Source: Oryzias latipes | Taxonomy: Eukaryota; Chordata; Actinopteri; Beloniformes; Adrianichthyidae | Length of the DNA: 64,000 nucleotides | Reading direction: 5' to 3' | Assembly: GCF_002234675.1 (NCBI RefSeq) | Contig: NC_019860.2 | Span: 9,422,586-9,486,585 of the forward strand | Position numbers and translations under genes: made by a program | Shown: in pieces, positions 5,097-29,930 of the stretch | How the letters are laid out: each line of letters starts with the position of its first letter | How positions within the stretch are numbered: position 1 is the first letter of the stretch | The notes under the pieces: generated by a model | Told to the model about the DNA's origin: nothing | Databases searched by the model: none | What the model saw: only the letters and a program-made list of their open reading frames with translations

Positions 5097-5240
5097 GTGG
5101 TAATGGTAAATGCCAAATACTTACAAAGCACTTTTCTACCTTCTTTGAAGGCCCAAAGCGCTTTACAGTCACACACACATTCACCCAATCACACACACAT
5201 TGGTGGCAGCTCCCCTGCCTGGCACCAACTTTCCACCAAC
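5097..5240 (+). mobile_element. SINE-like fragment
   Basis: The text tggtaatggtaaatgccaaa ... cccaaagcgctttacagtca ... acattggtggcagctcccc matches the body of the better-preserved tRNA-derived SINE at 45737-46004. Only one part is present; the tRNA-like head is missing. It recurs at 11866-12012 in unit 2. Confidence 0.6.
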
Positions 5241-5294
5241 CTTCCAAATGTTGTAAGTTTACAGAGAATGATTATTCAGACTTTCTGAACATCC

Positions 5295-5366
5295 TGCTGT
5301 GACCCGGATTCGAACCAGGGTTGCTGAGGCCACAACACAAAGTACTAACCACTATACGATCACAGC
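5295..5366 (-). tRNA. tRNA-His(GTG)-like, probably degenerate
   Basis: Read on the minus strand, the 72-nt sequence folds as a tRNA-His: acceptor stem GCTGTGA/TCACAGC, D-arm with TAGTGGTTAGTA, anticodon loop TTGTGGC (anticodon GTG) and a T-arm with GGTTCGAATCC. The anticodon stem has a mismatch (TTGTG against CTCAG), and no run of four T follows within about 50 nt. A tRNA pseudogene is more likely than a working gene. Confidence 0.6.
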
Positions 5367-6735
5367 TGACAAGTGCCAGCGGTCATAGTTCTAGTCTTTG
5401 TTGCTCTCCAGAGCTTTTTTTTGTCAGAACACAGTTGGACTTCAAGAACAGTAGAAATGCTAAGTTTGTTATCTTCATACACAAATATAGGAGAGACACA
5501 TTTTCACATCACAATCACTGCAGCTGACCACTCTGGTCTTTTATCACAACACTTTTGCCCCTTTTAGTCAAAAACATTTTTCTATTCTCTCTTTACTTAG
5601 TATCAACCTAACAGCGGCATGTGTGTAGAAACGGGCTTTAATCACCATACAGAAAAACACCATAGAGATCTTTGTACACCAAGGTGTGAGACAAGAAACC
5701 AACCTTCAAGAAGAAGACTTTATCACAACAGCTGTCTTTACTGAGTCTGAAAGTGACACCAAAATGAAGACAAATACAACAGGCTCATTTCCACCATGCC
5801 TTCCCATGTGTCCAAGGGTCCTTGGGCAAGACATTAAATCCTGTTTTTGTCCTGGTCGTTTAAGGTTGGCGCCAATATTTAGCAATGTTTGAATGTGTGT
5901 GTCTATTGGGGAATGGGACTGTGAATATAAAGCAAGCCTTCTAAGAAGGTTGTAGAGCACTACATAAGTAGCATATGCTGTTATCTATTTCTTCAGATTT
6001 TCACCGGTAGAAGAATCTGACAGTGAGATCAATTCAAATGCACAGAATTGTGTGTTGCTGTGACACTTGGATGGGAACTTGGTGACTAAAGGCCATAGAT
6101 GTTTAAAGCTTAAACCATGTGCACCTGTACGGCTGCTGTTTCTCTTTGGGTTATCCATGCCCGTGGAGGGTCGTAGAGAGGAGTGGCTGCAATCATAAAG
6201 AGAGTACAGGTGTGTTTGAGAGTTCCCGTTGGAGTCGTTGAAAGCAGAAGCTATGATTGTTGTGCGTATGGTAAGTGTTTTGTGAAATATTCTTTTGTAA
6301 GTTGATGTACAGATGATGCTGTTGTACGGAGCTCCTAAGCCATATTCTAATTATAGCACAATTTTGACCTTCACTTACATAGGCTTTTGCAGGAAAAAAA
6401 TGTGCAACCGTGTTCGGTGAGAAGAAGGAACATGCACTGATCGCATGAACAGCACCTGCACTGTCCACAGGATTGGAGGGATTAAAACCATTGAAAATCT
6501 CAATGAAACACCTACATCTTTCACAAGAAAAACTCCTAAGACTATCTTTTTTCAGTTGGGATAGGGGTGTCCAACAGACTGAAGCTGTTGGGCATGAGGA
6601 GTCCAGACAGCCAAGTTCTGGCATCTTGGATGTATTTTTGTTTCAAGAAGATGTAAGATTTTGCAGCATTGAAGGAATTCATGATCAAACATTGTATGTT
6701 TACAGAAAGTGATTTTTCAGAATTTCTGAACATCC
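5367..6735. other. Spacer between tRNA-like copies
   Basis: It begins with a block (tctccagagc followed by a T run and gtcagaacacag) that also follows the second tRNA-like copy at 6852. This shows that the tRNA segment was duplicated inside the unit before the larger duplication. It also contains an inverted SINE tail fragment near 5795-5960 (gtccttgggcaagac, gaatgggactgtgaat). No gene is seen. Confidence 0.5.
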
Positions 6736-6807
6736 TCCTGTGACCCGGATTCGAACCAGGGTTGCTACAGCCACAACGCAGAGTACTAACCACTATACGA
6801 TCACAGC
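6736..6807 (-). tRNA. tRNA-His(GTG)-like
   Basis: This is the second tRNA-His-like sequence of unit 1. The anticodon loop TTGTGGC is kept, and the anticodon stem pairs with two G-U wobbles. The last acceptor base pair is lost (GCTGTGA against TCACAGG). A- and B-box-like sequences are intact. No poly-T terminator is evident close by. Confidence 0.6.
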
Positions 6808-8918
6808 TGACAAGTGATGTTGGTCACAGTTTTAGTCTTTGTTGCTCTCCAGAGCTTTTTTTGTCAGACCACAGGCCCCACTGCCCCAGAACAATTAAAA
6901 GCCACCAGACAAGAACTAACTAGTCTGGCTCCAGGGTGGGGCACTGGTAACTCTTATTAGGGGGAGTAGGTGGATCTAGTAATGAAAAGGTTTTTGGTTG
7001 AATCGCCCTTAGTCTGGCCCGTTTCCCAGGCCAGTTTGAGGTGGAACACCACCAAGGTACCGGCTCCTTGGATCATTCGGGCATGCAAACCCCTCCACCA
7101 CGATAAGGTGGCGATTCAGGGAGGGGGTATTTATCAGTCACTAGCCAATCACTAAAAATTACGGTGGGGAAACTGAAATGCTGGGAGAAAACCCACAAGA
7201 CTGCCCGGCTTTAATTTGGTTCATGATCTATATATGTTAGTGACTGATATTTTTTATTTTTTTATTTATTTATTTGTTGGATTATTTGTTTTATGTTTTA
7301 ATTTTATTCATCATTAATTGCTTATTATATAGTTGATATGTATATTTTATTATTATTAATATTAGTATTATTATTAGTACTATTATATTTTTACTATTAC
7401 TAACTACTATTTATACTTTTATTACTATCAGTTTTAGCCACATACAGCTCAGACAGCCTAACAGAAAGAGAACACGTAGATGCACAGCGAGGGCAAGTGG
7501 CGTGTAGAGGTGATGGTGAGGGAAAATTGCACTTTCATCCTCTAATTCATTTAAAAAAAATTTTTTTTAGAATCTAGGGAAAGCCGGAGCACCCGGAGAG
7601 AACCCACTAATGCACAAAGGAACACAAAACTTTTCTCCAAATAGTGATTACCTTATTACCCTTGTGCTATCCACGGCACTTTAACTTTGGGAGTGGGGTC
7701 ATCTGGACCCCACAAGACATATAGCATATAAACGCTCGGGTTTCCTTGGACTAGGGGCGGCTGAAATTCCTGGGTGGTTTCTCTTTGTGTCAGCCTGCCC
7801 CTTTTGTTTGCCTTAGCTCATCTTGCCTGGTTTTGCCCTCATTTATTACTTTTGGAGTTTTTTGCCCTGGTGTTGACCTTCTCTTTTGTGTCTTTACGTT
7901 TCAGGTTCTTTTCAGTTTGCTGTTTTTTGTGTGGTATTTCTGTTTTCCCTTGTTGTTGAAATAGCCATGCTCTCTAATTTGTTATTTCCTAACCCCCCTT
8001 CATTTATATCCTTGTTTTCTTATCCCTCTTTGTTGGTGCAATACCTGTAATAAATGGCCTAGCTGCCATTTATTGCTGATCCCTCACTGGTTGTTTTGTT
8101 TTGTCTTTATGTTACATATTCATCCCTTGTTAAGTAGGCAGCATGGATTAAAAGGGATGGAACAGTGGGGTTGGGGTGGCACCAATTCAGGCAACATTAT
8201 CAGAACTTCATGGTTCCTTCTCATGAAGGAGCTTTGAACCGCTCTTGGCCTGGCTCGTCACTTTGGACCTGTCTGCCATGGGTAACAAAAGCAGGGGAGT
8301 TAGCCCCAGACATCTTTGCTCCTAGAATCACTCCAGCTCCCAAACCCCTCCACACCTTTAATGTTGGTTTACTGAGGGCTCTGTGTTTATATTTGCATGC
8401 TTGTCTATAAATCTCTTTTCATATTTTGTTTAAGAACTTTATCTCTATATATTTTTGGATATTTCATGTATCACTATATTTTTCTGTAAAGCAATCTCTG
8501 TACGTAGAGATATTTATGAGTCTATCTTTTTCTAATTGTCTGTCTAAGACAATATATCCTAACAATTTTGTATATTTGTATATAAATCTATTTTTTTAGT
8601 TTTATATTTATACTTTTTAAAACAAAGATCATGAGAAACTTCAAGTCAAACAGAGATAAACTAACTAATTGAATATATGAATAATATATAAAAACCAAAA
8701 CTCACAAATATTTATCAACTTCAGACTTGTTTCTCTACTTCCAAATAAAAAATAAATCTTTAAAATAAATTAATGACAACTTAAATTTATCTTAGTAAAA
8801 AACACTAACATTTTTTAAGATTAAATAATTCAATATAAATTCATTTAAAAACCTGTCACACCTTTTTATTACTAAATTACTTATATTCCTACTAGCTAAT
8901 GTTATCTAATATTTACAC
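6808..8918. other. Gene-poor AT-rich part of unit 2
   Basis: This is the counterpart of bases 1-2060: dispersed-repeat fragments at 7000-7150 and 8160-8365, a MITE remnant at 7655-7718, and AT-rich 3' flank. No gene is supported. Confidence 0.6.
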
Positions 8919-10610
8919 CTATGCATTGCTGCTTGCATTGGAGCTGACTTTAACGGCTGCTTCTTCTGACTGAACCCAACTGAACTGATGTGGTGGATTC
9001 ACTTTCAGTGTGTCTAGCAGTTGAGAAGAGGCGTCCGGCTTTGCTTTAGGGCACATGCTCTTAGTTTTTCTTCTATTGGTGGTTTTCTGAGGTGCAGCTC
9101 CAATGGTAAAGATAGTCTGCTGAGGTTCTAACAACAAGGAGGCTTTTACTTTGTCCGATGCCGAGATTTTCTTTGGAAAAGAACTTTGTAGTTGGCAAGA
9201 CTTTTCCTGAGGTGCACACCCACTGGATTTAGCCTGGCTGCTGACTTTAACGGCTGGTTCTTCTGACTGAACCCAACTGAACTGATGTGACGGATTCACT
9301 TTCAGTGTGTCTAGCAGTTGAGAAGAGGCGTCCGGCTTTGCTTTAGGGCTAATGGTCTTATTTTTTCCTCTCCTATTGGTTGTTTTCTTAGGTGCAGCTC
9401 CAATAGTAAAAATACTTTTTTGTGATTCCAAACAAGCTGAGGCTGTTATTTGGATCAATCCAGAGGCACTTTTAGGTCTATCAAATTCTGTCTGGATTGA
9501 GGTCTTCTGTTGAGGTGCACACACAATTGTCTCTGCTTGGTTGCTGATTCTATTGGTTGCTAAGTTGGACAGAAAGACCATCTCTGCCACCTGTATTTCA
9601 AGATTTTCTCTTTTCTCTTTTTGTTTTCCAATTTGATCTTCCATGTGTAAATTTAGATTGTTGATTTCAAGCAGTTGTTTTGTGACCATTTCTGTTTCCT
9701 CTAAAACTGTCTTGTAGCCCTTTGAGTAGCTTGTTTTCTTTTCCACCTTGAGGAATTCTGTCACATTTTGGATCTTCTCCTCAAGTTCTCTGATTTCCTT
9801 TCGACTCTCTTGTCTAATGTGCCGCTCCTGCTCAATACTTTTTTCAGAAAACAACCAGTCTTCATCAGCCTTAAGTGCCTCCTGCTCACATTTCTTGAGG
9901 AGGTCCAGTTTTCTTGCAATGTTCCTTTCCCTCTTAGCTAAACAGCTTTTTAGCTTATTGCGCTGTGAGATCAATCCATTAAGATCGTTGACGTCAGATT
10001 CTTCTTGAGACTCCTCTGATAGTGAGTCTTCTGAATCAGAATCACTTGAATTGTCATCCTCACTATCTGAATCAGAGGGTCCAAATGGATATACTCTGGG
10101 GGAGGGAGAGTCCAGACTCTGCTCATCTGTGTGCTCATCGGTGTAGCTGTTGTCAGGGGACATCGAGTAGTAAAACTCCAGATCACCTTCAAAGTCACTC
10201 TGACTAAATTTCCTGTCAGCATCAGAGATTTGAGATGAATTGTCTTGAGAGTCCAGACTGTGCTCATGGGTGTAGCTATTGTCAGGGGACATCATATTGT
10301 TGACCTCTAGATCAACTTCAAAGTCACTCTGACTACATTGCCTGTCACCATCAGAGATTTGAGATGAATTGTCTTGGGGGATGAGAGAGTCCTGACTGGT
10401 CTCCTCTCTGGAACTTTCCTCGGGGAAGACAATCATGTTATAAAAGTCGTCGTCCAGGATGATGTTACTCTCGTTTTCAACAATATCGGACCAGAGTTTG
10501 GTAACTTTTTCTTCCTGTTGCATCATTTTTCTCATTCTTGATAGCTGATTTATTTTCTTTGTCTCTTCTTGAGTTGAAGGAATGCTGATCTCTGGGGAGT
10601 ATTTATGCAT
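8919..10610 (-). CDS. Intronless 563-residue protein, unknown function (acidic N-terminus, coiled coil, C-terminal repeats)
   Basis: A single open frame from ATG to stop; I do not recognise the family. Seen in the sequence: an acidic Ser/Asp-rich N-terminal third with two copies of a 43-46-residue unit starting DNSSQISD (about 80-122 and 123-168) and a DSDSEDD/DSDSEDSL stretch (about 180-205). A charged helical region rich in Lys/Glu/Leu with coiled-coil character follows (about 213-345). The C-terminus has two copies of a roughly 60-residue unit with a 100-residue period (about 398-458 and 498-556), each with FTIGAAP, TTNRR, PKAKPDASSQLLDTLKVNP and HQFSWVQSE. No signal peptide or membrane segment is visible. 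The start is supported by the unit-1 copy sharing it. A nuclear or cytoskeletal scaffold role would be a guess. The frame is kept open over 1.7 kb in one of two copies, so it is probably a real gene, though origin from a mobile element cannot be excluded. Confidence 0.7.
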   Translation of the reverse strand: MHKYSPEISIPSTQEETKKINQLSRMRKMMQQEEKVTKLWSDIVENESNIILDDDFYNMIVFPEESSREETSQDSLIPQDNSSQISDGDRQCSQSDFEVDLEVNNMMSPDNSYTHEHSLDSQDNSSQISDADRKFSQSDFEGDLEFYYSMSPDNSYTDEHTDEQSLDSPSPRVYPFGPSDSDSEDDNSSDSDSEDSLSEESQEESDVNDLNGLISQRNKLKSCLAKRERNIARKLDLLKKCEQEALKADEDWLFSEKSIEQERHIRQESRKEIRELEEKIQNVTEFLKVEKKTSYSKGYKTVLEETEMVTKQLLEINNLNLHMEDQIGKQKEKRENLEIQVAEMVFLSNLATNRISNQAETIVCAPQQKTSIQTEFDRPKSASGLIQITASACLESQKSIFTIGAAPKKTTNRRGKNKTISPKAKPDASSQLLDTLKVNPSHQFSWVQSEEPAVKVSSQAKSSGCAPQEKSCQLQSSFPKKISASDKVKASLLLEPQQTIFTIGAAPQKTTNRRKTKSMCPKAKPDASSQLLDTLKVNPPHQFSWVQSEEAAVKVSSNASSNA

Positions 10611-10770
10611 TTAAATCCCATCATGCCATGATGTAAAATGACATCATTGCATGTTATCATGTGATGACATGATTTAATATCACCAAAGGATGACATCATA
10701 TAATGTCATCCTTTGATGATGTAATCATTGAATGATGTCATGACTGAATGATGTCATCTCTGAATCACGA
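10611..10770 (-). promoter_or_regulatory. Upstream palindrome cluster, unit 2
   Basis: This is the same TGACATCA-type cluster and 12-bp inverted repeat as in unit 1, immediately upstream of the open copy. It has one visible substitution (gatgtcatgactg against gatgtcatcactg). A regulatory function is inferred. Confidence 0.4.
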
Positions 10771-12065
10771 TACTACATACAATATTTCCCTCGTCTTCCA
10801 TGCAGGACCAGCAACTACGGAGAACCACTCCACCTGTACCACAGTTGAAGAATGTCCATCATTGATCCTTCCTCCTCAAAACCCCTCCTGAACATTTCTG
10901 ATGCTTAGTGAAACATTTATTAAAGAGCATTGAAATATTTCTCATTATAAAGTTTTTTTTCTCTCTCAAAGCAATAGATTGATCATCCGGATGATAGTTA
11001 CGTCTGTTCTCTGTGATAATCTTCCTCAGTGTATCACCTGCAGATTTGGTTGTTGTTTTCTAAATCATCCCTGAATTCATAACCAAAGAAATAACTTTTA
11101 ACATGAACCCAAATGTGGAGTAAATTTTTTCTTTATTAGAAATCAGAAATTTCTGCACAATTACAGAATATGACTTTGTTTTAACTTGTTTTCTTTCAAC
11201 TATGGGGGGTTATCCAAATATATTTTTTCTTACCAGTGTTTATCAATTATAAATCTTTTTTAAAGGTAATTCAACAGATTGGATTCCTGAAATTGTTTTT
11301 ATTTTATTTTATCCTACAGGGACTTGAGAACATCAAGTGAGAAGGATATCTGAGATCTTGACAAGCTGGAGCCTCAGAGTTGGACAATAAAAAAATATAT
11401 TTTATGTTTCTCTCTATTTTTTATTTTTTTCAAAGGCAGATGACCAATAAATAAAATGTTTTTAACAATCTAAGTTTATTGTTGTTATTTTCCAACAAGA
11501 CAAAAGAGAGGAAACTGACTTTAAGTGTTTAAACTGGTTTCAACCTGTCCTGTCCTGACTGTGACACCAATTTTAAAAATCCTTTATCTTCATGATTTTT
11601 TAACTTAGAATTGGGATATGCTTAAACTGGTGCATATAGTGTAGCATAAAAACTCAAACAGGGATTATGACAGTTATCATCATTTACAGCACATACAGTT
11701 AAGAGCAGACGAGCAGCAGGTTACAGGTGGAGATTAACGTGTGGCCCAGCAGCCATAAAATAGCTGAACTGGATTCTCAGCTGAAATACAGAAGTTTCCA
11801 GGTTAATACAAGTTCATCTCAAAACGTAGCAGTATCCACAATCTCGGAACAAACGCAATTAAGTGGTCATGGTAAACGGCAAATACTTATAAAGTGCTTT
11901 TCTACCTTCTTTGAAGGCCCAAAGCGCTTTACAGTCACACACACATTCACCCAATCACACACACATTCACAAACACACACATTGGTGGCAGCTCCCCTGC
12001 CTGGCACCAACCTTCCAAACATTCTAAGTTTACAGAGAATGATTATTCAGAATTTCTTAACATCC
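10771..12065. other. Spacer of unit 2
   Basis: AT-rich, collinear with 3916-5294, with a SINE-like fragment at 11866-12012. No coding exon is recognised. Confidence 0.5.
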
Positions 12066-12137
12066 TGCTGTGACCCGGATTCGAACCGGGGTTGCTGCAG
12101 CCACAACGCAGAGTACTAACCACTATACGATCACAGC
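12066..12137 (-). tRNA. tRNA-His(GTG)-like, best-preserved copy
   Basis: On the minus strand the acceptor stem (GCTGTGA/TCACAGC), anticodon stem (CTGCG against TGCAG, one wobble), anticodon loop TTGTGGC and T-stem (CCCGG/CCGGG around TTCGAAT) all pair. Of the four copies this one looks most likely to be functional. There is still no run of four T directly downstream. Confidence 0.7.
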
Positions 12138-13409
12138 TGAGAAGTGATGGTAGTCACAGTTCTAGTCTTTGTTGCTCTCCAGAGCTTTTTTGTCAAAACA
12201 CAGTTGGACCTCAAGAACATTAGAAATGCTAAGTTTGTTGTCTTCATACACACATATAGGAGAGACACATTTTCACATCACAATCACAGCAGGTGACCAC
12301 TCCGGTCTTTCATTCACAATACTTTTGCCCCTTTTAGTCAAAAACATTGTTCCATTCTCTCTTTACTTAGTATCAGCCTTAACAGCGGCATGTGGGTAGA
12401 CACTGGCTTTAATCACCATACAGAAAACACCATAGTGGTCTTGGTACACCAAGCTGTGAGACAAGAAACCAACATTCAAGAATAAGACTTTATCACAACA
12501 GCTGTCTTTACTTAGTCTGAAAGTGACACCAAAATAAAGACAAAGACAACAGGCTCATTTCCACCATGCCTTCCCAAGTTTCCAAGGGTCTTTGGGCAAC
12601 ACCGTGAATCCTGTTTTTGTCCTGGTAGTTTAAGGTTGCCGCCACTAAGTAGCAGCTGTTAACTATTTATTCAGATTTTCACCGGTAAAAGAATCTGACA
12701 GTGAGATCAATTCAAATGCACAGAATTGTGTGTTGCTGTGACACTTGGATGGGAACTTGGTGACTTAAGGCCATAGATGTTTAAAGCTAAAATCATGCGC
12801 ACCTGTACGGCTGCTGTGGCTCTTTGGGTTATCCACGCCCATGGATGGTCGTAGATAGGATTGGTTGCAATCATAAGGAGAGTACATGTGTGTTTGAGAG
12901 TTCCCGTTAGAGTCGTTGAAAGCATAAGCTATGATTGTTGTGTGTATGGTAAGTGTTTTGTGAAGAATTCTCTTGTAAGTTGATGCACCGATGATGCTGT
13001 TGTACGGAGTTCCTAAGCCACATTCTAATTAAAGCACAATTTAGACCTTCAGTTACATAGGCCTTTGCAAGAAAAAAAAGGGCAACCGGGTTGGTTGAGA
13101 ACAAGGAACATGCACTGATCTCATGAACAGCACCTGCACTGTCCACAGGATTGGAGGGATTAAAACCATTGAAAATCTCTATGAAACACCTACATCTTTC
13201 ACAAGAAAAACTCCTAAGACTATCTTTTTTTCAGTTGGGATAGGGGTGTCCAACAGACTTAAGCTTTTGGGCATGTGGAGACAGCCAAGTTCTGGCATCT
13301 TGGATGTATTTTCGTTACAAGAAGATGTAAGGTTTTGCAGCATTGAAGTAATTCATGATAAAACATTGTATGTTTACAGAAAGTGCTTATTCAGAATCTC
13401 TGAACATCC
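12138..13409. other. Spacer between tRNA-like copies, unit 2
   Basis: Collinear with 5367-6735, with internal deletions around 12650. No gene is recognised. Confidence 0.5.
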
Positions 13410-13481
13410 TGCTGTGACCCGGATTCGAACCGGGGTTGTTGCGGCCACAACGCAGAGTACTAACCACTGTACGATCACAGC
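13410..13481 (-). tRNA. tRNA-His(GTG)-like
   Basis: Fourth copy. The acceptor and T arms pair fully and the anticodon GTG is kept. One mismatch lies at the outer anticodon stem pair (CTGCG against CGCAA), and one change in the D-arm (TACAGTGG). Confidence 0.6.
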
Positions 13482-13700
13482 TGAGAAGTGATGGTGGTCA
13501 CAGTTCTAGTGTTTATTGCTCTCCAGGGCTTTTTTTTGTCAAACCACAGGCCCCACTGCCCCAGAGCAATTAAAAGCCACCAGACAAGAACTGACTAGTC
13601 TGGCTCCAGGGTGGGGGCACTGGTAACTCTTATTGGGGGAGTAGGTGGATCTAGTAATGAAAAGGTTTTTGGTTGAATCGCCCTTAGTCTGGCCCGTCTC

Positions 13701-14316
13701 TATCGTGTCAAATTAGCGCCTAAAGTATTGCGCATCAAAACAGTAAAACCGCGCATCAAAACCCCAAATCTGCGAATCAAAATGCATAAATTGAGAACCA
13801 AAACCCACAATTTGCAACCAAAAGCTATAACCCAAAGCACAATCCTATTTCTCAGCTGGCGATTTGTTTTCTCGCCATTCCTGTTTTTGAGTTGCAGTTT
13901 TATTTTGAAATTGTCTTTTTGAGTTGCGCTTTTATTTTTTGAGTTGCGCTTTTATTTTTTGCGGTTTTGATTCTAAAACCTGTCGACACGTAAAAACAGC
14001 GACATGTCAGTCAAGGGGAGGGGAGGCGGGACATCCCTGAAATCCAGAAGCTCATTGGCTGCCGAATAACACCGAGTCTTACGTCAACAGACCAGTTTAG
14101 AATGTGCCGGTAAGTTTTACATGTTTTTCAAATCTTTTACTATATTAAACGATCAAACTTGTACTTTATTTAACCAGAGGACACCAGCACAGTCAGATGA
14201 GGAGCTCCACCAGTAGCTGCTAGTGAAAAAAAATGTTGGAAATTTAGATGTTGCATGAAAAACTATCAGCATTGTTCTCCCGTGTTAGCATGCTAGCTAG
14301 CTCAATGCTAGCGGGG
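13701..14316 (+). repeat. Left terminal inverted repeat
   Basis: 616 bp, nearly identical to the reverse complement of 17873-18495. It contains short direct motifs (gcgcatcaaaac, aaaccgc, gagttgcgcttttatttttt twice) near the tip, a subterminal arrangement that could bind a transposase. The inner end has gctagc-rich sequence. Confidence 0.9.
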
Positions 14317-15291
14317 TATGTATGCGTCTGCACTATGCAGACTGGCAGAATTCTGGTTCAGTGAATCAGAGCAGAGTAAATTGTAGCAGACCAGCAAAAA
14401 CGTGCTTTATTCCCCATAAAATTAGTCCAGTATTAGACATCAATAGAATTATTAGTTTCTTTTTAATTAGGTGGTGGTTTTAAAATGGACTATTGCTGTA
14501 TGTCTGTTGTTTTCTATAAGGGCCGTTGTTATGCATGCCATAACAAAAAAGGCAGGAATACTGAGGTAGCAACGAAGTGGATGTCCACAACTTCTTTAAG
14601 GTAAAGAAAACAATTTTAATCTTATTTTTTCTCTTCTTTTTTTGTTTAATTGACTTTGCTGGTTTTGTTTCTTTCCAGATGCAGGCTCCAAAGACGGCCC
14701 TGGTGTAATGCAAAGGCTGTCCAGCAGGCTCACAGACATCTCCTGTTAACTGAAAGAGAAGCATTTAAAATAGTTGTCCATTTTGACCTTGATTGCATTG
14801 ACAACATGCCCAGGCACACTGTCTGCTTCCCATTTCTCAGTGCCACCTGCACGAAAACAGTGACTTTTCCACCTCAAGTCTTTTGAGGAGTTTTAAAAAC
14901 AGTTATTTTAATTTCTCTGAATTGGGGTTCAGAATTTCACAGAATCTAAAACACTTGACTCTGTGTTTCAAAGATCTTTGCAAAACCATCAGTCTTTTGT
15001 ACAAAACACATTTAATGGTCAAAGATTAAAAAATGAAGCATTACAAAATACCAGTGGTGATTATTAGCCATTTCTTTTCTTAAGGGGTGCAGTATTTTGT
15101 AAGGCAGATGAGATCTGTTCACATTGTTAGTTTTTGTTACATCCTGCTGAGATGACATGCATAGATCAGTACATAAATGTTAATGTCTTGGCCATGGTTT
15201 TCCGATGTCCCACAAGGGTTGAACAATAGTGACAGGTCTGAGAGGAGAGAGGACAAGCCACAGAGGGAACAACAACTCCAACAGTTTCCTG
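14317..15291 (+). other. Transposon interior, possible decayed exons
   Basis: Near 14483-14613 a short frame is rich in Cys/His (CCMS, CYACH) and is followed by a donor-like aggtaaag. After tttccag at about 14680 a second frame follows but contains stops. This could be the debris of a zinc-binding transposase exon pair. I cannot name it. No long frame is present. Confidence 0.3.
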
Positions 15292-15549
15292 GGGCCTGTT
15301 TCAGAAAGAAGGTTAAGTGTAAACTCTGAGTGCGTTAACCCTGAAATCAGGGAAACCCTGGGTTTTCCGTTTCAGAATGGGAGGTTTGTTAAACCAGAGA
15401 AAGCAGAGTAAGTCAAACCCGTTTCTGAAAGAGAGGTAACTTATACTCGGAGTCAGTGTCCATGGTTACTTACGCTGTGAACCTAACCTGGTCGGGAGCA
15501 GGTTTTATTCTCTAAACTCAAGGTTTCTGTCGGTCCCCTCCCCTTTTTC

Positions 15550-15940
15550 TACAGAACTCAGCGGCACGAGTGCTGACGAGAACCAGAGGGCGGGAACACA
15601 TTACACCGGTTTTAAAATCGCTGCATTGGCTCCCTGTGCGTTTCAGGATTGATTTTAAAATTCTTTTAATGGTTTATAAATGTTTTTATGGTCTTGGGCC
15701 TTCTTATTTAAATGATATTCTTTTAAAATATGAGCCCTCGCGGACCTTGAGGTCTTCCAGTGCTGGCCTCTTAGTTGTTCGCAAGGTGAGGACCAAAACT
15801 TATGGTGAGGCTTAGTTCTGCCATTATGGTCCTCGCCTGTGGAACGGCCTTCCGGAGAACCTCCGGGCCGCAGAGACTGTAGAGGTTTTTAAGAAGAGGC
15901 TCAAGACTCACCTTTTTAATTTAGCTTTTAGTTGATTTTA
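15550..15940 (+). mobile_element. L2-type LINE, 3' end of reverse transcriptase ORF
   Basis: Plus-frame translation gives NSAARVLTRT, SLHWLPV, RIDFKIL, YEPSRTLRSS and, after a frame break near 15810, WNGLPENLRA-like text. These are the conserved C-terminal words of the L2/CR1-type polyprotein, also seen in the intact copy at 57440-57850. A 5'-truncated fragment. Confidence 0.8.
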
Positions 15941-16089
15941 ACTGCTAATTTATTCTATTAGTTTTAATATACGCTATTTTTTGTATTTATTTTAATTTTA
16001 TGCATCTTCTTCTCAATTTTATGTTTTTTTTCTTCTTCTTTTTTATGTTCATTGCCCAAATTTCCGTCACACAGAGACAAGTGACAAGA

Positions 16090-16260
16090 ATGGCTTGTCC
16101 TTTTTTGGAGGACCCAATAGACGAGGAGGCTGCATTAATTCCTAGAGAATTACATTTACGTCGTGCGAGGATTTTGAGACCTAGACTCGATTTTTTGTCA
16201 TTTCCCCATACGTTTTTGTTTGAGCGTTACCGTTTTTCGTTGCAGTCAATTACATATATA
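16090..16260 (+). pseudogene. HARBI1-type transposase, N-terminal fragment
   Basis: From ATG at 16090 the frame reads MACPFLEDPIDEEA ... RARILRPRLDFLSFPHTFLFERYRFS, matching the typical start of Harbinger transposase (PF..DP...LRR.R..R.R.D.L.....ERYRFS). It stops after 57 codons. The catalytic DDE region is absent. Deleted relic of the nested Harbinger element. Confidence 0.7.
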
Positions 16261-16836
16261 CAATGAAAACAACATTAGATATTGCTATGTAGATGTTTCA
16301 TATGTCAAATATTGTCAACAAAGCCTACATCCATGACATGCTCCCCATGGACCTGATTGAATTATGTTTTTATACTTCATTTTTAGCTGCTGCCATGTTC
16401 TTTTAATTCCTGCAGGATTGCATCTACATGAAAATGAAATCAGGGACATTGAATTAGATTAATGAAACAATTACTTTTTGGAAACACAATTTGCTAGTTC
16501 TGCTTACTTTCTTAATCCCATATAAACCTATACCAGTTGATCAATACAAGGGTAGACAAAAGTTCACTTTTGAAAACACAATTGCATGTATTAATATTAA
16601 ACTGACCAACGTTTGCAAGAGGGGAAGGTTAACAAAAAAGTCCTCTAAACATTACCGACGTTAAATGCATTTTTCCCCAGATTGGTTCTGTACACTATGC
16701 AGCATTTCATGCAATTACACCAGGAATAACACTTCAAAAGTACACCTAAATATCGCCATTTTTTATTTCACACCTTACTCTATTTAAAAAGTTATTACAG
16801 TCAATATTTTATAACAATGATTTAAATGCAAACTTA

Positions 16837-17050
16837 GGCATTAACTTGAGCAGCTGTGTTCTCCCACGCTAACTGTCTCTGTTTTGCAGATGCAGCGGTG
16901 TTGCTTTTCTTCTGGAATATGTTCTCATATTCACTGTAACTCTGCAGCAGCACGTCAAGTTTAGCTGGCGAAAAATACGGAGACTTCTTTTTTTCACGGT
17001 TGCCATGGTGACTCGTAATATCTGCACTCCATTGATAATGGCTTCTTATA
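16837..17050 (-). pseudogene. Harbinger Myb/SANT-like DNA-binding protein, fragment
   Basis: Minus-strand frame with YFSPAKLDVLLQSY, FQKKSNTAASAKQRQLAWENTAAQVNA, the signature of the Myb-like partner protein of Harbinger elements (NAIF1-like). A candidate ATG (about 17008, MATVKK) lies in a different frame, so a frameshift separates start and domain. The protein ends at the domain edge. Confidence 0.75.
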
Positions 17051-17307
17051 GTCGCGGTGCGCACGCTTAACTCCGAATCAGTCCACTCAGAATTGATTGA
17101 CCTAACTCCGATCAGCTGCTCTGAAACAGAAAACTCAGAGTTGTTAATCTCTCGATTGACCAACTCAGAGTTCAAGTTTAACCTCAGAGTTGGTTGAACC
17201 TCCTTTCTGAAACAGGCCCCTGCTCTGCCTGGTTTAAGTTAGTCTGTCGTCCAATGTCCACAGCATCCTGCACACAAAGAAAAATGTATTTAAGACAGTT
17301 AAAATCA

Positions 17308-17310
<3 letters not shown>

Positions 17311-17400
<90 letters not shown>
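17311..17400. repeat. (TA)n(CA)n microsatellite
   Basis: About 34 TA steps followed by about 11 CA steps. It lies in the outer transposon interior, to the right of the nested Harbinger. Length is likely polymorphic and may be unreliable in assembly. Confidence 0.95.
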
Positions 17401-17872
17401 TTAAATAATACTCAGTAGCTGCATATTGTGAAAGTTAACTTCCTTTGTGAACCTGCAATCTTTAAGGTTGAGAATAAAATGGTTTGGGAATACAGTTCAG
17501 AATCAGAAAAACTTTATTGATCACACATGTGGGAAATTTGTTCTGGTACCTCAAATAAATAATGTGTTTCTGAATCATAAATTTACTTTTCTTTTTTTTT
17601 TAAATAGGGATGAACTTGATCCCAAACTAGGAAAGGTGGCACTTTTCTTACAGAAATATGTTGCTTTGTTCAATCAATCTGTAATCCCTAAAGGTATATT
17701 GAGAAACCTTATAAATTAAATTATACATGAATGTATTTCTTGAAAAAAATCTTTGATTAATCCTAGTGACAATTCACGGGCAATTATTCCCAGGTTTACA
17801 AGACTGATCCTGACACTGTGGTAAAAAATTGACTTTGTTTAATCCATAAAAGCCATGAAAAGAGCTGGAAAA
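17401..17872. other. Transposon interior, right part
   Basis: A short plus frame at about 17600-17719 (DELDPKLGKVALFLQKYVALFNQS) might be a transposase exon remnant. I do not recognise it. The rest is AT-rich. Confidence 0.3.
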
Positions 17873-18495
17873 CCCCGCTAGCATTGAGCTAGCTAGCATG
17901 CTAACACAGGAGAACAATGATGATAGTTTTTCATGCAACATCTAAATTTCCAACATCTTTTTTCACTAGCAGCTACTGGTGGAGCTCCTCATCTGACTGT
18001 GCTGGCGTCCTCTGGTTAAATAAAGTACAACTTTGATCGTTTAATATAGTAAAAGATATGAAAAACATGAAAAACTTACCGGCACATTCTAAACTGTACT
18101 GTTGACGTAAGACTCGGTGTTATTCGGCAGCCAATGAGCTTCTGGATTTCAGGGATGTCCCGCCTCCCCTCCCCTTGACTGACATGTCGCTGTTTTTACG
18201 TGTCGACAGGTTTTAGAATCAAAACCGCAAAAAATAAAAGCGCAACTCAAAAAATAAAAGCGCAACTCAAAAAGACAATTTCAAAATAAAACTGCAACTC
18301 AAAAACAGGATTTCAGAATGGCGAGAAAACAAATCAGCAGCTGAGAAATAGGATTGTGCTTTGGGTTATAGCTTTTGGTTGCAAATTGTGGGTTTTGGTT
18401 CTCAATTTATGCATTTTGATTCGCAGATTTGGGGTTTTGATGCGCGGTTTTACTGTTTTGATGCGCAATACTTTAGGCGCTAATTTGACACCATA
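17873..18495 (-). repeat. Right terminal inverted repeat
   Basis: 623 bp; pairs with 13701-14316 with few differences. It ends ...ggcgctaatttgacaccata, followed by the target duplication cgtctc. Confidence 0.9.
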
Positions 18496-21302: not shown

Positions 21303-21568
21303 TGCGTGCACTTAGGATTAATCCGCAGTACTCTACGGATCACAATTTAAACAAAGTAAAAAGCACAAAGGAAAAAGGAGACAATGTGACTTTCGGTTTA
21401 AACTTTTCTTAAAATCTTGTGGAAATGCAAAGTTGCAAAGCTTGACCATTTCATTTGGTAATAAACATATCAAACCTGGATGCATGTACAGTGGTCCCTC
21501 TTTTATCCCTGGGGTTACGTTCTAAAAAATTGCTTGCAATAGGTAAAAAGTAGCATTATAAATGTTTA

Positions 21569-21719
21569 AATAAGCGACTCGTCGCATTTCGGGCAGACAC
21601 TCGGCAGAATTGCAGTTTACTCCCCTAGGGCGGGTCTGTTAATTAACCCACCTGCTTAGCGTCCTATTTAAGTCAGGTGTACAATTGTTCATTCTCTCTT
21701 ACCTTCAGCGCTCATTCTT
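21569..21719 (+). repeat. A1 repeat
   Basis: 151 bp starting aataagcgactcgtcgcatt and ending agcgctcattctt. It matches A2 (26339-26489) without a visible difference. It includes a tatttaa word that could be a promoter element. Confidence 0.9.
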
Positions 21720-24510
21720 CGCCGGTCTCCGAGCCCGCGGGTCTCCTTCTCTTTCGGCGTCTTGCCATGTTCCCCCGTCCTTGGGAAGGATGATCCCCAT
21801 CTTTCTGATGTGGGGTTTTGGTTTCGCCGCGTCTGCTCTCCTTAATTTCTCCTCCGCTCCGCGGGCGGCTGCCGATCCGCGGGCGGCTGACGGCGCACAG
21901 CGCGTTCGTTTCGCCGCGGTCGCGTGCATCTGCAGGGGGTGTGCTTTCCGCAATGTTCGGGATGTCCGTGCCCCCCGATCAGGAGTAGTCGGGTCTTCTC
22001 GTCTGCCGTGGTCACCCCAATTATCCACGGTGAGCGTCGTGCGGTACTTTTCCCATGTAGTTTTCTATGGCTGCGTCTCACTTCCTGTTTACTTCGGTGA
22101 CGTCACGCCCCTAAGGACCCTGGGAATTGTAGTTTTTTTCGGGTCCTTTATGATGCACTTCTGATTCTTTTTCTGCTGCGTAGTTCTGCGTCGTCCGGTT
22201 GTTTTATTTTTTTTTTTTCAGGGGTTGTGGGGTCCTTTCTGTGGTTGTGAAGGCTGGCAGTCCTCGTTTGGACAGGTTTCTCATGCTGGCTGAATTTATC
22301 GTGGCTTTTAGCATTTATTTTCTATTGCTGTTTTGTTCTTTGGGAGCTGTGTGTAAATCTTGATTGTCTTTAATTTGATGCTGGCTTTATTATTATGGCG
22401 GTTCTTCTGTTTGTTTTCTTCGTTGTTGTAGCTGCTGGTTAGTTGGAATGTGAATCAGTGTCTCTTGGACCCGTCTCTGCGCTATGGACATTTTCCCTTA
22501 TGATTGGTCTCTCTTATGCAGCGTCTATGGCTCATTTTATTCACTCAGCGATCCTCATTCATTGCCCCGCACGTTCTGCTCCGCCTGTTTTTTCCCTGCT
22601 CTGTGTACCCCAGTGGGTCCTGCCCTGTCCTCAGGGACTTGCGTCGGCCGCATTAGTGAGTGTGTCGGTCTCGTCGCGGCCTTGTTTTCTCGGCTGGGGG
22701 TAGTTCGATCCTGGGCCGCGTGTTCCTGTTCTGGATTTTCGTGTTTTGCGTTTGATCTTTCCCTCTCTATGCCTGGAGTGGTTTTGTGATGAATGTTGTG
22801 TCTTCAGGCTTCCTCCACTTGTTCTCCTGTGTCTGCGCCTTCTGGTTTGGGGGAAAAGGATTTAAGAAGAGTGGTTTGTGTTTGACCGGCCGCCAGAATC
22901 TACAGCTCTGATGGTTCTCAAGGGGTCGTCCGGTTATTTCATCCTTGGAGATTATATTAAGGCTGTTTCAATATTGAATGATAGTATTGTGTCATCGGTT
23001 GACTTGGTTAATTAACACTTTGAGCAACTTCTACCCTGACCATAGGAAATATATCACTTGCGCTCTCAAGCTTAGTTCAAGAGTTAAATCTTGTGTCCAC
23101 AAGTCAGTCTTCGGTCTGACTTTTCTAAGCAGATGGCACTCTGCTAGATGCATCCCCATTTGGAGGCTTGTTATACTCCGCCTCTGAATGCTTAAGGTTC
23201 AGTCTAGCAAAAATAATATCAAAACCATGATCCCTCATGGCTCTCAAGTTCTCTTTTGCAGTATCCAGTCGCCCTTGGCTAAATAAAAAATTTGAGAACC
23301 ATTAATATCATATACAAGGCATCAAATCCAGCCGAGCTGTAATCCTCTGCTACGTGGGATGTTGACCTTCCTCATCTACAAATCTCCTTGGCTACTCTTC
23401 CCATCTACTACTCCTACTCCTCGATGGCCTCCTGAAGGTGCGTCCCTCTGAAACTGTCAAAGGTTACTTTTATCATTGGAATATATAAAACAAAAAATTG
23501 GTGTTAAGATTCCGTGCAGGTCATATATTTCACTATTATTTCACTGTTGGAATTTGTAATTATGGTGGTTTCTTGGGTGCGATAAATCCACAATGGGTCT
23601 TTACCTTAACTATCTACTAAATTTCACTTTCTCAGATTTGTTTTTAAAAGCACTGTTATTTAATTTATCTCAATCATTTTGAAACTGATCAGTTTCTGGG
23701 TTATTTATATATTCTTGTCAAGACTAATACTGCTTTGTTTTTTATCTATGCATCGCATCCTGAGCCTGCGAACCCTCACGCCCCGATCAGCTTCTCCGTT
23801 TCCAGGAAATGATGTCACCCATGCATTCCCTGATCTGGTGCTGCAACGATGACTGCTCAACGTACCTATTGCTGCACTGAAAGTGAAGGGGTGGTGGACC
23901 TCCTCTGCGTTCCAAGGACACTTCTGGCTTGAATCAATCTATGTCAGCTGCAGAATGAGTGTGAAATTCTTGGATTATAAATGTTGAAAGAAAATTATTT
24001 GTCAGGTGGAAGCCTCAAAATTTAGGTTGCTCTAAGTTGTATCAATTCAATCATTTTAATTGGTATGCCAAATGGGAGAAAACTTTGTGGCCGTTAAGCT
24101 CGTTGTGGTATTGTCGTTGGAGTTCGTAATAATGGCAGTTATTAAGCCTGCGTTAGTAGCATGCATGATGTGTATATAATGGCGTCGAGCCCGTCATAGT
24201 GTGATGGCAGCTTAGAATAATGGATTTTACTAAGCTTGTGTGAATATTATGCCAGATGAAATGTTTATGGCCGTTAACCCCGTCATAGTATGTGATGGAA
24301 GCTTCAAATATGGGGTTATTTCATTCATGGCATAGGATGTCATCGGGAGCATTGTATTGGATGTAAGTTTGTGTCATCCTAGGGTCGTCCATGGCGGCTA
24401 GAATTATAGTTCCGCCAGCGTTTTGCGGACGTGGGCTTTACGTTCTAAGATCAGGTAGGAGTACTTCTTATGTCGGCTCCCATTTCATTTCTTTCCCTCT
24501 CTCTTTGAGG
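21720..24510. other. Interior of the split-repeat element, no intact ORF
   Basis: GC-rich (21720-22150), then increasingly AT-rich. Near 22100 it carries ctgggaattgtagttttt, text frequent in fish UTR-like or repeat sequence. Frames up to about 160 codons on both strands show no domain I can recognise. Confidence 0.4.
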
Positions 24511-25097
24511 TAGTATGCTCCCCTGGTGAATGGGAGCGGCCCAACGGTCAATGGTGCCGGGGTAAACACATAGCAGATACACTAGATAGCATGTTCCCTT
24601 CGTAGAGTGGTTCTCGAACGGGAGCGGCCCAACGGTCAATGGTGCCGGGGTAAACACATAGCAGATACACTAGATAGCATGTTCCCTTCGTAGAGTGGTT
24701 CTCGAAGGGAGCGGCCAAACGGTCAATGGTGCCGGGTAAACACATAGCAGGTACACTAGATAGCATGTTCCCTTCGTAGAGTGGTTCTCGAACGGGAGCG
24801 GCCAAACGGTCAATGGTGCCGGGTAAACACATAGCAGATACACTAGATAGCATGTTCCCTTCGTAGAGTGGTTCTCGAAGGGAGCGACCCAAACGGTCAA
24901 TGGTGCCGGGTAAACACATAGCAGATACACTAGATAGCATGTTCCCTTCGTAGAGTGGTTCTCGAAGGGATCGGCCAAACGGTCAATGGTGCCGGGTAAA
25001 CACATAGCAGATACACTAGATAGCATGTTCCCTTCGTAGAGTGGTTCTCGAAGGAAGCGGCCCAACGGTCAATGGTACCGGGTAAACACATAGCAGT
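24511..25097 (+). repeat. 86-bp tandem repeat, array 1
   Basis: A leading partial unit, then six units of 86-87 bp. Each unit has a hairpin (cccttcg ... cgaaggg around tagagtggttct), then aaacggtcaatggtgccggg and tagcagatacactagatagc. The frames in it are by-products of the repeat and not genes. Confidence 0.95.
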
Positions 25098-25380
25098 CAT
25101 ACTGGAAAATGAAATGAAGTGAAGTGAAAATGGAATGCAGCCGAAAACACACCTCATCTTATTTACACACTGATTATACATTCACATTTTCTCTTCTGGA
25201 TGATCTTGGCGTTGGGGGTTTTTGTTACCCTAAAGCGTAAGGAAAATAATTATCTTAAGAGAAGTCCTCCCTCAAGTAGAAGCCGCGAATGATGAGTATA
25301 AAATGCATGGTGTTTAAATTGAATCAGGTTGTGTAATCTTGTTGGCTCCCCTCCAGTCTTCTTTTTCTCTCTCTCTCTTC
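25098..25380 (+). other. Spacer between the two 86-bp arrays
   Basis: It starts with agcagtcatactggaaaatg, which also follows array 2 (26048). It includes a diverged piece of the B repeat (about 25215-25260). The whole module of array plus trailer is therefore duplicated. Confidence 0.7.
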
Positions 25381-26053
25381 AGATAGTATGCTCCCCTGGT
25401 GAACGGGAGCGGCCCAACGGTCAATGGTGCCGGGTAAACACATAGCAGATACACTAGATAGCATGTTCCCTTCGTAGAGTGGTTCTCGAAGGGAGCGGCC
25501 AAACGGTCAATGGTGCCGGGTAAACACATAGCAGATACACTAGATAGCATGTTCCCTTCGTAGAGTGGTTCTCGAAGGGAGCGGCCAAACGGTCAATGGT
25601 GCCGGGTAAACACATAGCAGATACACTAGATAGAATGTTCCCTTCGTAGAGTGGTTCTCGAAGGGAGCGGCCAAACGGTCAATGGTGCCGGGTAAACACA
25701 TAGCAGATACACTAGATAGCATGTTCCCTTCGTAGAGTGGTTCTCGAAGGGAGCGGCCAAACGGTCAATGGTGCCGGGTAAACACATAGCAGATACACTA
25801 GATAGCATGTTCCCTTCGTAGAGTGGTTCTCGAAGGGAGCGGCCAAACGGTCAATGGTGCCGGGTAAACACATAGCAGATACACTAGATAGTATGTTCCC
25901 TTCGTAGAGTGGTTCTCGAAGGGAGCGGCCAAACGGTTAATGGTGCCGGGTAAACACATAGCAGATACACTAGATAGCATGTTCCCTTCGTAGAGTGGTT
26001 CTCGAAGGGAGCGGCCAAACGGTCAATGGTGCCGGGTAAACACATAGCAGTCA
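25381..26053 (+). repeat. 86-bp tandem repeat, array 2
   Basis: A leading partial unit, then seven units of 86 bp, more uniform than array 1. It has the same start (agtatgctcccctggtgaa) and the same trailer as array 1. Confidence 0.95.
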
Positions 26054-26188
26054 TACTGGAAAATGAAATGAAATGAAATGAAATGAAGTGAAAATGGAAT
26101 GCTGCCGAAAACACACCTCATCTTATTTACACACTGATTATACATTATACATTTACATTTTCTTCTTCTTCTGGATGATCTTGGTGTT

Positions 26189-26341
26189 GGGGGTTGTTAC
26201 CCGAAAGTGTATGGAAAAATAATTGTCTCAAGGAATTGAACGGAGCCTTATGCCAAAACGAAGTTGTGAATCAAATTGTGAATGTCATCCTAAAGATGTT
26301 GTGAAATAAATGTTCTTCTGCAAGAGTTGTCTGACTGAAAT
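26189..26341 (+). repeat. B1 repeat
   Basis: Starts gggggttgttacccgaaagt and ends gttgtctgactgaaat, abutting A2 directly. Matches B2 over 153 bp without a visible difference. Confidence 0.9.
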
Positions 26342-26489
26342 AAGCGACTCGTCGCATTTCGGGCAGACACTCGGCAGAATTGCAGTTTACTCCCCTAGGG
26401 CGGGTCTGTTAATTAACCCACCTGCTTAGCGTCCTATTTAAGTCAGGTGTACAATTGTTCATTCTCTCTTACCTTCAGCGCTCATTCTT
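26339..26489 (+). repeat. A2 repeat
   Basis: Same as A1. Linked to B2 by about 43 bp of pyrimidine-rich sequence. Confidence 0.9.
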
Positions 26490-26532
26490 TGCCCCTCCCT
26501 CCTCCCCGGCTTCCACCTGTGGGCTCCGTTAC

Positions 26533-26685
26533 GGGGGTTGTTACCCGAAAGTGTATGGAAAAATAATTGTCTCAAGGAATTGAACGGAGCCTTATGCCAA
26601 AACGAAGTTGTGAATCAAATTGTGAATGTCATCCTAAAGATGTTGTGAAATAAATGTTCTTCTGCAAGAGTTGTCTGACTGAAAT
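26533..26685 (+). repeat. B2 repeat
   Basis: Same as B1. Its right edge (gaaat then gctttcaaac) marks the right end of the element. Confidence 0.9.
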
Positions 26686-28037: not shown

Positions 28038-29599
28038 TTATTCATACTCCAGGGCAGGACTATTTTTTGAAGCACTAGAACAAGAAACCATTTTCTGCTT
28101 TGTGTGAGCTAGCATGTGATTTTTGAGTACATAACTTCGACTAAAACTTTTGCTGCATTCTGCACAGGAAAAAGGCTTTTCTCTCTTATGAGTTAACATG
28201 TGACGTCTGAGAACAGAACTATGCCTAAAAGTTCTGCTGCAGGCTTTACAGAAAAAAGGCTTTTCTCCCGTGTGAGTTAATATGTGACGAGCGAGATTCG
28301 AATTTTTGCTGAAACCTTTATGGCATTCTTTGCAGGAAAAGGACTTTTCTCCGGTGTGAGTTAGCATGTGACGTTTGAGATAAGACATTTGCTTGAACTC
28401 TTTGCTGCAGTCTTTACAGGCATAAAACTTTTCTCCCGTGTGAGTTAGCATGTGAGATGTGAGACTATAACTACGACTGAAACTTTTATGGCATTCTTTA
28501 CAGGAAAAGAGCTTTTCTCCTGTGTGAGTTGAAATGTGTCGAGCGAGATTAGAATTTTTCCTGAAACTTTTATGGCATTTTTTACAGGAAAAGGACTTTT
28601 CTCCCGTGTGGGTTAGCATGTGATGAGCGAGATTAAAATTTTTCCTGAAACTTTTATGGCATTCTTTACAGGAATAGGGCCTCTCTCCGGTGTGAGTTAG
28701 CATGTGACGTTTGAGATAAGACATTTGCTTGAATGATTTGCTCAGGTCTTTACAGGAATAAGACTTTCCCCCCATGTGAGTTAGCATGTGAGATGTGAGA
28801 TTATAACTACGACTGAAACTTCTGTGGCATTCTTTGCAGGAAAAAGGCTTTTCTCCTGTGTGGGTTAACATGTGACGTGTGAGAACAGAACTATGCCTAA
28901 AAGTTCTGCTGCAGTTTTTACAGGAAAAGGGCTTTTCTCCCGTGTGAGTTAAAATGTGACGTACGAGATTAGAATTTTTGCTGAAACTTTTATGGCATTC
29001 TTTACAGGAAAAAGACTTCTCTCCGGTGTAAATCCTCATGTGACACCTCAAACCTAGAAATTCTTTCTTAGATGTTTTCCCACAGACATGTTTTTTTTTC
29101 TTCTTCTCTGAGTTGATATCAAAATGACTTTCTAACATGTGAGAGCTGTCCACACTTTGGACATAAATTTTGTCTTTTCTCCTTCTCTGATCTCTGTTCT
29201 GTGGATCTGTCTCTTCTTCTTTTGTAGATGTTGATTGTTCATGCTGACTTCCTTTTTCATCCTGACTATCAGATACATTAAAGTTCTGCTGATTGTTTAG
29301 ATCTGCTTCACTGTTCTCATCTTCCTCATGAGTAGGAATCTCCATCAAGGTATCAGTCTCCTGCTTCAGATCAAGCTGATCTTCATTCTCACTGATGCAG
29401 AGCCCTTCTTGTTCCTCTTTAATCTGTGGAGGTTCTGGTTCTTCCTGTTCTTTAAATTGAGATGGTTCTAGTTCTTCCTGTTGTTTAACTTGAGATGGTT
29501 CTGGTTCTTCCTGTTCTTTTACTTGAGATGGTTCTGGTTCTTCCTGCTCCACACTCCAGGAGTTTCTCTCCAGTTTATTCAGATAATGTTGGGGAAGGT
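28038..29599 (-). CDS. C2H2 zinc-finger protein, exon 2 (finger exon)
   Basis: Likely a nuclear DNA-binding transcriptional regulator of the fish multi-finger C2H2 family. The exon starts after tgtccttacag (acceptor at 29600-29601) with a 1-nt carry that makes Asp of DLPQHYLNK. It then encodes four tandem 11-13-residue units of the type EQEEPEPSQVK, an acidic linker and KEEETDP. A degenerate leading finger is followed by 11 finger positions of the form C-x2-C-x12-H-x3-H joined by TGEKPF-type linkers. Finger 4 has lost its second Cys (YSCKDLSKSF). Finger contact residues repeat in blocks (KNSNL, RHSSVL, SRSYNL, KQMSYL), showing internal duplication. The open frame upstream of 29599 is intron. 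With exon 1 the protein would be 576 residues. No KRAB, SCAN or BTB domain is seen. Confidence 0.85.
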
Positions 29600-29930
29600 C
29601 TGTAAGGACATAAACAAGAGAGAAACTTAGTGTGATTTCAAGGGCAGCGTTTCCACCCGCCTGAAAACATCTGCCATTAAATTCCATTCCATTCAATTCC
29701 AGAGCCAAATTAGGCTGCAGTAAATGAAACTTTGTGTAAAAGAACAAAAAAAATCTATTCAGGAAAACTAATACAAACAATAATAAGATAATACATTATT
29801 GATTCATCAAATCTGAGGTGTTTCCGGTTCCGGGTTACAGCACAGACGCGTGTTGCTCACTGCAGCTATACAACTATCTTCAAATGACTTAAAAAGTTGA
29901 TTTTCTCAAAAAAAAAAAAGAGCTGACCGT

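Follow-up and report, generated by a model that had tools for sequence, protein, structure and literature searches.

A non-coding element with split direct repeats in medaka that probably moves like an Ngaro-type retroelement

A window of 64,000 nucleotides from Oryzias latipes (NC_019860.2, positions 9,422,586 to 9,486,585, forward strand; window numbering is used throughout) contains at 21569-26685 an element whose ends are built from two repeats, A and B, in the order A1...B1-A2-B2, and whose interior has no recognisable gene. The evidence presented here indicates, with a probability of roughly 0.83, that it is a non-autonomous element with split direct repeats (SDRs) which moves in the manner of Ngaro-type tyrosine recombinase (YR) retroelements. 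Membership in the Ngaro group itself is likely but unproven.

Anatomy and copies of the element

Exact alignment showed that A1 (21568-21719) and A2 (26338-26489) are identical at 152 of 152 bases with an offset of 4770, and that B1 (26189-26341) and B2 (26533-26685) are identical at 153 of 153 bases with an offset of 344, as a preliminary description of the locus had proposed from inspection. A chance origin is excluded because the expectation for an exact repeat of such length in 64 kb is approximately 1e-76. The element follows the order A1, a 4.47-kb body, B1, A2, a spacer of 39-43 nt and B2, so that A2 and B2 are not contiguous but separated by conserved sequence. The AAAT at 21568-21571 which opens the A run is common to the target and the B end, and the element proper begins with AAGCGAC at 21572. 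The features of the element, all on the + strand, are as follows.

21568..21571, +: left junction AAAT, crossover zone shared by target and B end (from left-flank counts)
21572..21719, +: repeat A1, identical to A2
21574..21585, +: dyad GCGAC-TC-GTCGC beside the crossover site (equivalent in sister family fam2, ACGAT-TT-ATCGT)
21663..21672, +: TATA-like box CCTATTTAAG, a putative promoter judged by its sequence
21720..26188, +: non-coding body (Pfam on four open reading frames, shuffled-frame comparison)
24532..25096, +: tandem array 1, with 6.5 copies of an 86-bp unit
25222..25260, +: diverged B-like piece between the arrays, 85% match to B positions 6-44
25405..26050, +: tandem array 2, with 7.5 copies of the 86-bp unit
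26189..26341, +: repeat B1, with AATAAA at 26305-26310
26333..26359, +: internal B1/A2 junction GACTGAAAT|AAGCGAC..., identical to the one that a circular form would contain
26342..26489 (exact run from 26338), +: repeat A2, identical to A1
26490..26532, +: A2-B2 spacer, with a 25-nt conserved run and GGCTCCGTT at 26522-26530
26533..26685, +: repeat B2, with AATAAA at 26649-26654 and the element end GACTGAAAT

The SDRs that characterise Ngaro retrotransposons were thus found in the element and also in its copies, while the whole terminal repeats at both ends and the target duplication that characterise long terminal repeat (LTR) elements of the TRIM or LARD type were absent. The two arrays, the B-like piece and the A2-B2 spacer are additional to what had been described before. 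Both arrays combined gave 15 unit matches in 8/8 copies, and each of two sister families had related 86-bp units at the one locus that was read. The B-like piece, judged by its similarity to B, is probably a relic of an internal duplication.

The longest open frame before the arrays (21724-24504) has 146 codons, a length equalled or exceeded in 30 of 200 shuffles; when the first 1.2 kb of this stretch was shuffled, 209 of 500 shuffles reached or exceeded the observed frame. Pfam searches of four open reading frames (ORFs) overlapping the element, with the shorter of the 14 listed frames left out, gave no match over the cut-off, and QCR10 (E 0.22) and DUF3744 (E 0.037) were sub-threshold. Rfam and tRNA searches of the window gave no match inside the element. 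The absence of a readable reverse transcriptase (RT), RNase H or recombinase from the interior therefore held up in the Pfam scan and the shuffle test, and the RT/RNase H of the Ngaro clade was among the domains not recognised in the body of this copy.

The genome searched for copies comprised 734,051,031 bases in 25 contigs. The whole-element search showed 14 places matching the query from position 1 or 2 to 5117 at 95-100%, in addition to partial copies, and this number is a lower bound with 26 of 1429 candidates scored. The same split-repeat order is thus dispersed at at least 14 end-to-end places. Eight full copies, all with different flanks, showed a mean pairwise mismatch of only 0.26% over the first 2.9 kb (gaps excluded), which indicates recent spread and supports the recent activity suggested earlier. 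One copy (C18:7315288, L022) runs straight into a 510-codon frame (L022 1622-3151) that is BEL-type gag-like by eye, and for this reason it probably sits within another retroelement.

Among 40 scored B matches (of 751 candidates), 28 were the two B repeats of 14 B1-A2-spacer-B2 copies, 10 were solo A-spacer-B units and two were body-B copies without A2-B2, so that 38 of the 40 adjoin A or belong to a full copy. At C21:12491046 (L051, L017) a complete A-body-B element with normal flanks was present, and at C12:552262 (L070) B closes a body that was read short of its 5' end. B was never apart from the element among these 40 matches. Independent occurrence of A and B, or ordinary LTR structure in other copies, either of which would speak against the preliminary description, was accordingly not seen, and the solo units also keep A and B together. 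No match to the A-start pattern was found in viral contigs.

The repeats of a copy also tend to vary together. At A site 45, the two A repeats have the same base in all 12 copies for which both were read (3 G/G, 9 T/T), both A repeats of the copies at C17:4158547 and C21:14577578 have a GACACG variant, and variants common to both B repeats numbered one in L008 and five in L069. These concerted variants are consistent with one repeat serving to rebuild the other.

A degenerate B1|A2 junction pattern had 134 exact sites in the genome and none for the reversed control. Among 100 listed junctions of these 134, 18 belonged to fam1, the family of the studied element, 16 to T1b (one A fewer, end AAT|AGCGAC), 57 to fam2 and 9 to fam3. 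At one fam2 locus (L075) the body was 94-97% alike over the two longest aligned stretches and 76-85% in others, with ends only 74-85% alike. At one fam3 locus (L076) body stretches were approximately 70% alike and the 86-bp units 77-93%. At L070 the B is of fam1 (99%), but the 5' pieces of the adjoining body have an identity of only 71-82%. Because end and body identities disagree at these three loci, ends and bodies either evolve at different speeds or are exchanged.

Joining to the target and signals in the ends

The flanks of A1 repeats and solo units showed a one-sided target preference. All 28 distinct left flanks end in AT, with A at -3 in 24/28, A at -4 in 22/28 and T at -6 in 21/28; from least to most extreme, the probabilities of these biases were 6.5e-6, 1.8e-6, 2.4e-8 and 2.5e-27 (background A 0.34, T 0.33). 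The count excludes A repeats with an unaligned first base or an identity below 97%, including three AGCGAC-type ends (L071, L072 and L074) that read ...AAT|AGCG or similar. The flanks thus yield T-[T/G]-AAAT as a consensus, which corresponds to the end of the element's B repeat, CTGAAAT. On the right side, the base adjoining the element showed no significant bias in 24 distinct flanks (A in 12/24, p = 0.13), and the strongest position tested was A at +7 (15/24, p = 0.004, uncorrected for 20 positions); ends without exact GACTGAAAT (L056 and L026) are excluded from this count. The left ends GACAT, TTTAT and TATAT face an unchanged right end GAAAT, and AAAT is therefore not a duplicated target.

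Absence of target duplications, a further expectation of the preliminary description and a property of Ngaro elements, was borne out at the two homologous empty sites. The first, which is A/T-rich, matches through the junction and for 8 bases rightward, after which homology stops. The second is colinear across the junction. Overall, flanks and empty sites fit the prediction for a circle whose B|A junction recombines with a genomic site resembling the B end, and we infer joining by a YR.

The dyad beside the crossover site is likely a recombinase-binding arm or a hairpin, as its variants suggest. Between the fam1 and fam2 forms listed above, pairing was retained through changes on both sides, and an intermediate form, ACGAC-TT-GTCGT, is present in one copy. 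Nine dyad variants were compared; six paired perfectly, two had one G-T pair and one had a single mismatch. The fam3 junctions (GAGCGACCTTGGGAGC and variants), which are outside this count, do not have this perfect dyad.

Signals resembling those of a transcription unit are also present. In A, an initiator-like TTCATTC (21688-21694) lies approximately 25 bases past CCTATTTAAG. Single end units of the three families, aligned with one another, keep most of this TATA/promoter block as well as ATTTCGGGCAG, the 25-nt spacer run (identical in all three units), GAACGGAGCCTTAT, AATAAAT and GAGTTGTCTGACTGAA. The spacer core had 907 genomic sites at ≤3 mismatches and none in the control. The spacer motif GGCTCCGTT is complementary to AACGGAGCC in B, and the folds predicted for fam1 and fam2 have all of the motif bases (8/8) paired with B; the fold predicted for a fam3-like solo has none (0/8).

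A possible cycle, its alternatives and the search for a partner

These features can be placed in one cycle. The RNA would start at the TATA/initiator in A1 and end after AATAAA in B2, and such a transcript would miss some 120 bases at the start of A1 as well as the final bases of B2. Exactly these parts are present in the internal B1|A2 block. Reverse transcription in trans with template switching could then make both ends complete again and seal a circle at B|A, and a recombinase supplied in trans would join this circle at TGAAAT| to TGAAAT-like genomic sites without target duplication. Restoration of lost transcript ends from the B1|A2 block is a published idea for such elements. For the medaka element the RNA step, the circle and the identity of the enzymes are deduced from the arrangement of its parts.

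Several observations weigh against this cycle. The RNA intermediate is deduced from sequence, and no partner with a reverse transcriptase or recombinase was found in the searches described below. B1 has its own AATAAA, which is expected to end some transcripts early. Two right ends deviate from GACTGAAAT, with L056 reading GACTGAAAAG and L026 slightly different, and the second empty site is only approximately 70% alike with a 7-base length difference. Within-copy private changes were present in A1 of L002 and B1 of L006. Finally, PF00589 at an E limit of 10, a search of possibly limited sensitivity for Ngaro YRs, gave only four matches, at E 1.0-2.5.

The partner search covered three domains. 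PF00589 gave no match in the genome at E 0.001. One PF00589 locus that was read (L077) showed DUF3504 (E 1.1e-14) and after it, in another frame, a Phage_integrase match that is weak (E 0.001) and does not reach the curated cut-off, and by these domains it reads as a Crypton-like tyrosine recombinase remnant. The RVT_1 search, with 150 of 16887 candidates scored, is uninformative at such coverage. The SGNH hydrolase domain PF13472, present in amphibian Ngaros, was searched with 150 of 353 candidates scored and matched mostly intact frames of approximately 305 amino acids with near-equal scores (for example C9:26426002-26426382). Only one of the 102 of these 150 matches located on C1-C17 was within 8 kb of any of the 100 listed B1|A2 junctions, on C7 and on the wrong side, and for this reason the SGNH hydrolase ORFs were not assigned to the family. 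They may represent a young mobile family, perhaps ORF1 of a long interspersed nuclear element (LINE) or an autonomous or other Ngaro.

Comparison of the 100 listed junctions (of 134) with 100 listed A1-body starts (of 138) showed 58 paired junctions and 42 unpaired, where listed starts have 0-1 mismatches and starts with 2-3 mismatches count as unpaired. In the paired cases a non-coding A1-body start from the list lies 3.6-7.6 kb upstream of the junction, and these copies are therefore probably non-autonomous. The unpaired ones comprised 14/16 of T1b, 9/9 of fam3, 17/57 of fam2 and 2/18 of fam1. The T1b copies, for example those around C9:22176467-22181763 and C15:13704617-13709057, are the best partner candidates, since 14/16 have no listed body start and the T1b-type solo L072 is fam1-like over its aligned part (A 98%, B 100%). 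The commonest type, fam2 (57/100 listed), was considered as autonomous partner and rejected, one locus being non-coding in the 3.2 kb read. One fam3 locus was non-coding in 2.5 kb read. The Ngaro-like identity in the preliminary description was upheld in part; the SDR anatomy, the lack of target duplication at two empty sites and the dispersed copies speak for it, and the Ngaro-clade RT and recombinase by which the superfamily is defined were recognised neither in the body of this copy nor, in these searches, in a partner.

The origin of the solo units is a separate matter within this scheme. The genome contained 388 A-spacer junctions, 138 A1-body junctions (both at ≤3 mismatches, none in controls) and 134 exact B1|A2 junctions, and on these counts solos seem to outnumber body-bearing copies (~250 vs ~135), although the patterns may catch diverged copies unequally and the A1-body pattern may miss T1b bodies. 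A slight preference is given to the explanation that solo A-spacer-B and A-body-B forms are ordinary leftovers of homologous recombination. A1/A2 and B1/B2 are identical direct repeats whose deletion gives exactly these two forms, and the isolated AB repeats of Cafeteria Ngaros have been explained in this way in PMC8547959. A weak argument against it comes from the distances between the repeats. More frequent recombination is expected for B1/B2, with 344 bp between them, than for A1/A2 at 4.8 kb, whereas the 40 scored B matches contained 10 solos and two body-B forms without A2-B2. A circle with two B|A sites could instead be resolved into A-body-B and A-spacer-B minicircles, each with a B|A site and able to integrate. 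This is a tentative proposal that ranks below deletion, which is somewhat more likely. If it were true, a single intermediate would give rise by integration to all three forms, full, A-body-B and solo A-spacer-B, and solo A-B units, including SIRE of Trypanosoma cruzi and the Cafeteria AB repeats, would arise regularly by transposition and would not be debris.

For the element as a whole, a place outside Ngaro, in a PAT-like, VIPER-like or as yet undescribed YR group with SDRs, is unlikely. According to PMC4157794 and PMC6681497, SDRs are common to PAT, Ngaro and VIPER, and no partner protein is in hand to place the element. Against this, PMC4746887 assigns 0.65% of the medaka genome to Ngaro and reports that in four teleosts DIRS is very rare except in zebrafish, and internal repeats at the 3' end fit Ngaro as characterised in PMC4157794. 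The Ngaro row in Table 4 of PMC4746887 has 5 families, apparently all from zebrafish.

A cycle without an RNA step, in which a DNA circle is cut and joined by a tyrosine recombinase (e.g. Crypton-type), is improbable. The flanks and empty sites speak only for recombinase-like joining, and the sole recombinase locus read in the genome is the Crypton-like one. However, SDRs with a TATA in A and an AATAAA in B, placed for restoration from B1|A2, have no obvious purpose in a DNA cycle, and most of the promoter block and the polyadenylation signal are retained in three families, judged from a single unit of each. That the locus is a local rearrangement mimicking SDRs, or a non-autonomous LTR element, can practically be dismissed, for although a solo A-spacer-B looks like a solo LTR, all 14 end-to-end copies show this split order, A1 runs directly into the body at 138 sites and two empty-site homologs have no target duplication.

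Other features were observed elsewhere in the window. Positions 1-14000 contain a large tandem duplication of approximately 6.85 kb, with ORFs of close similarity at 2062-3753 (in two frames) and at 8919-10610 on the minus strand, two pairs of tRNA-His genes (5295/6736 and 12066/13410), and tandem repeats at 3273 and 10130 that match each other. Within 13729-18467, short repeats seen by eye at 13729-13782 and 13916-13961 are mirrored at 18228-18273 and 18414-18467, which suggests a 4.7-kb element with inverted ends. Frames judged by eye are one of 585 codons with many C2H2 zinc fingers at 28038-29795 (-), which is also apparent as an 84-bp tandem array, one of 638 codons resembling a fish NACHT/NLRC3-like immune gene at 49290-51206 (+) and one of 679 codons for a LINE-type reverse transcriptase at 55813-57852 (+).

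Comparison with known systems

Little is understood about YR retroelements, and families with clean and recent insertions in many copies are useful for learning how they move. With near-identical insertions, a one-sided target rule T-[T/G]-AAAT, the dyad, the spacer and three forms, the medaka element makes the SDR circle model testable across strains. It also suggests that lineages without genes can keep an SDR layout, with a common body and diverging ends. Exact-phrase searches among 5.39 million papers gave no non-autonomous Ngaro/DIRS element or solo SDR, the single match being a Toxoplasma paper on another subject; the family may be named in Repbase.

TOC1 of the green alga Chlamydomonas, a member of the PAT/TOC group, is a non-autonomous SDR element with internal tandem repeats; it is likened to the medaka element by this description and not by sequence. 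A close likeness is with the Ngaro superfamily of vertebrates, fungi and protists, which has the order A1-[interior]-B1-A2-B2 with identical repeats of similar size. In PMC9210276, Xenopus Ngaros have SDRs and an SGNH hydrolase, and the repeats of DIRS-53_XT are 236 bp (A) and 152 bp (B) and 100% identical. Cafeteria Ngaros, according to PMC8547959, have the order A1-[ORFs]-B1A2B2 and isolated AB repeats, to which the solo units of medaka correspond. Unlike Ngaro, the medaka element has no recognised gag, RT/RNase H, YR or SGNH hydrolase, and has a long non-coding body with 86-bp tandem repeats and a conserved A2-B2 spacer.

SIRE of T. cruzi, a non-autonomous relative of VIPER, equals the A2-B2 region of VIPER with approximately 30 bp of exclusive sequence between A2 and B2 in the section of PMC6681497 devoted to it, a layout like that of the solo A-spacer-B unit; there the authors leave open whether it is a moving element or a remnant. 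Its host and ends differ from those of the medaka element and it has no 4.5-kb body. Finally, DIRS1-like elements share integration without target duplication (PMC3266345) but carry inverted terminal repeats and an internal complementary region in place of SDRs (PMC9210276).

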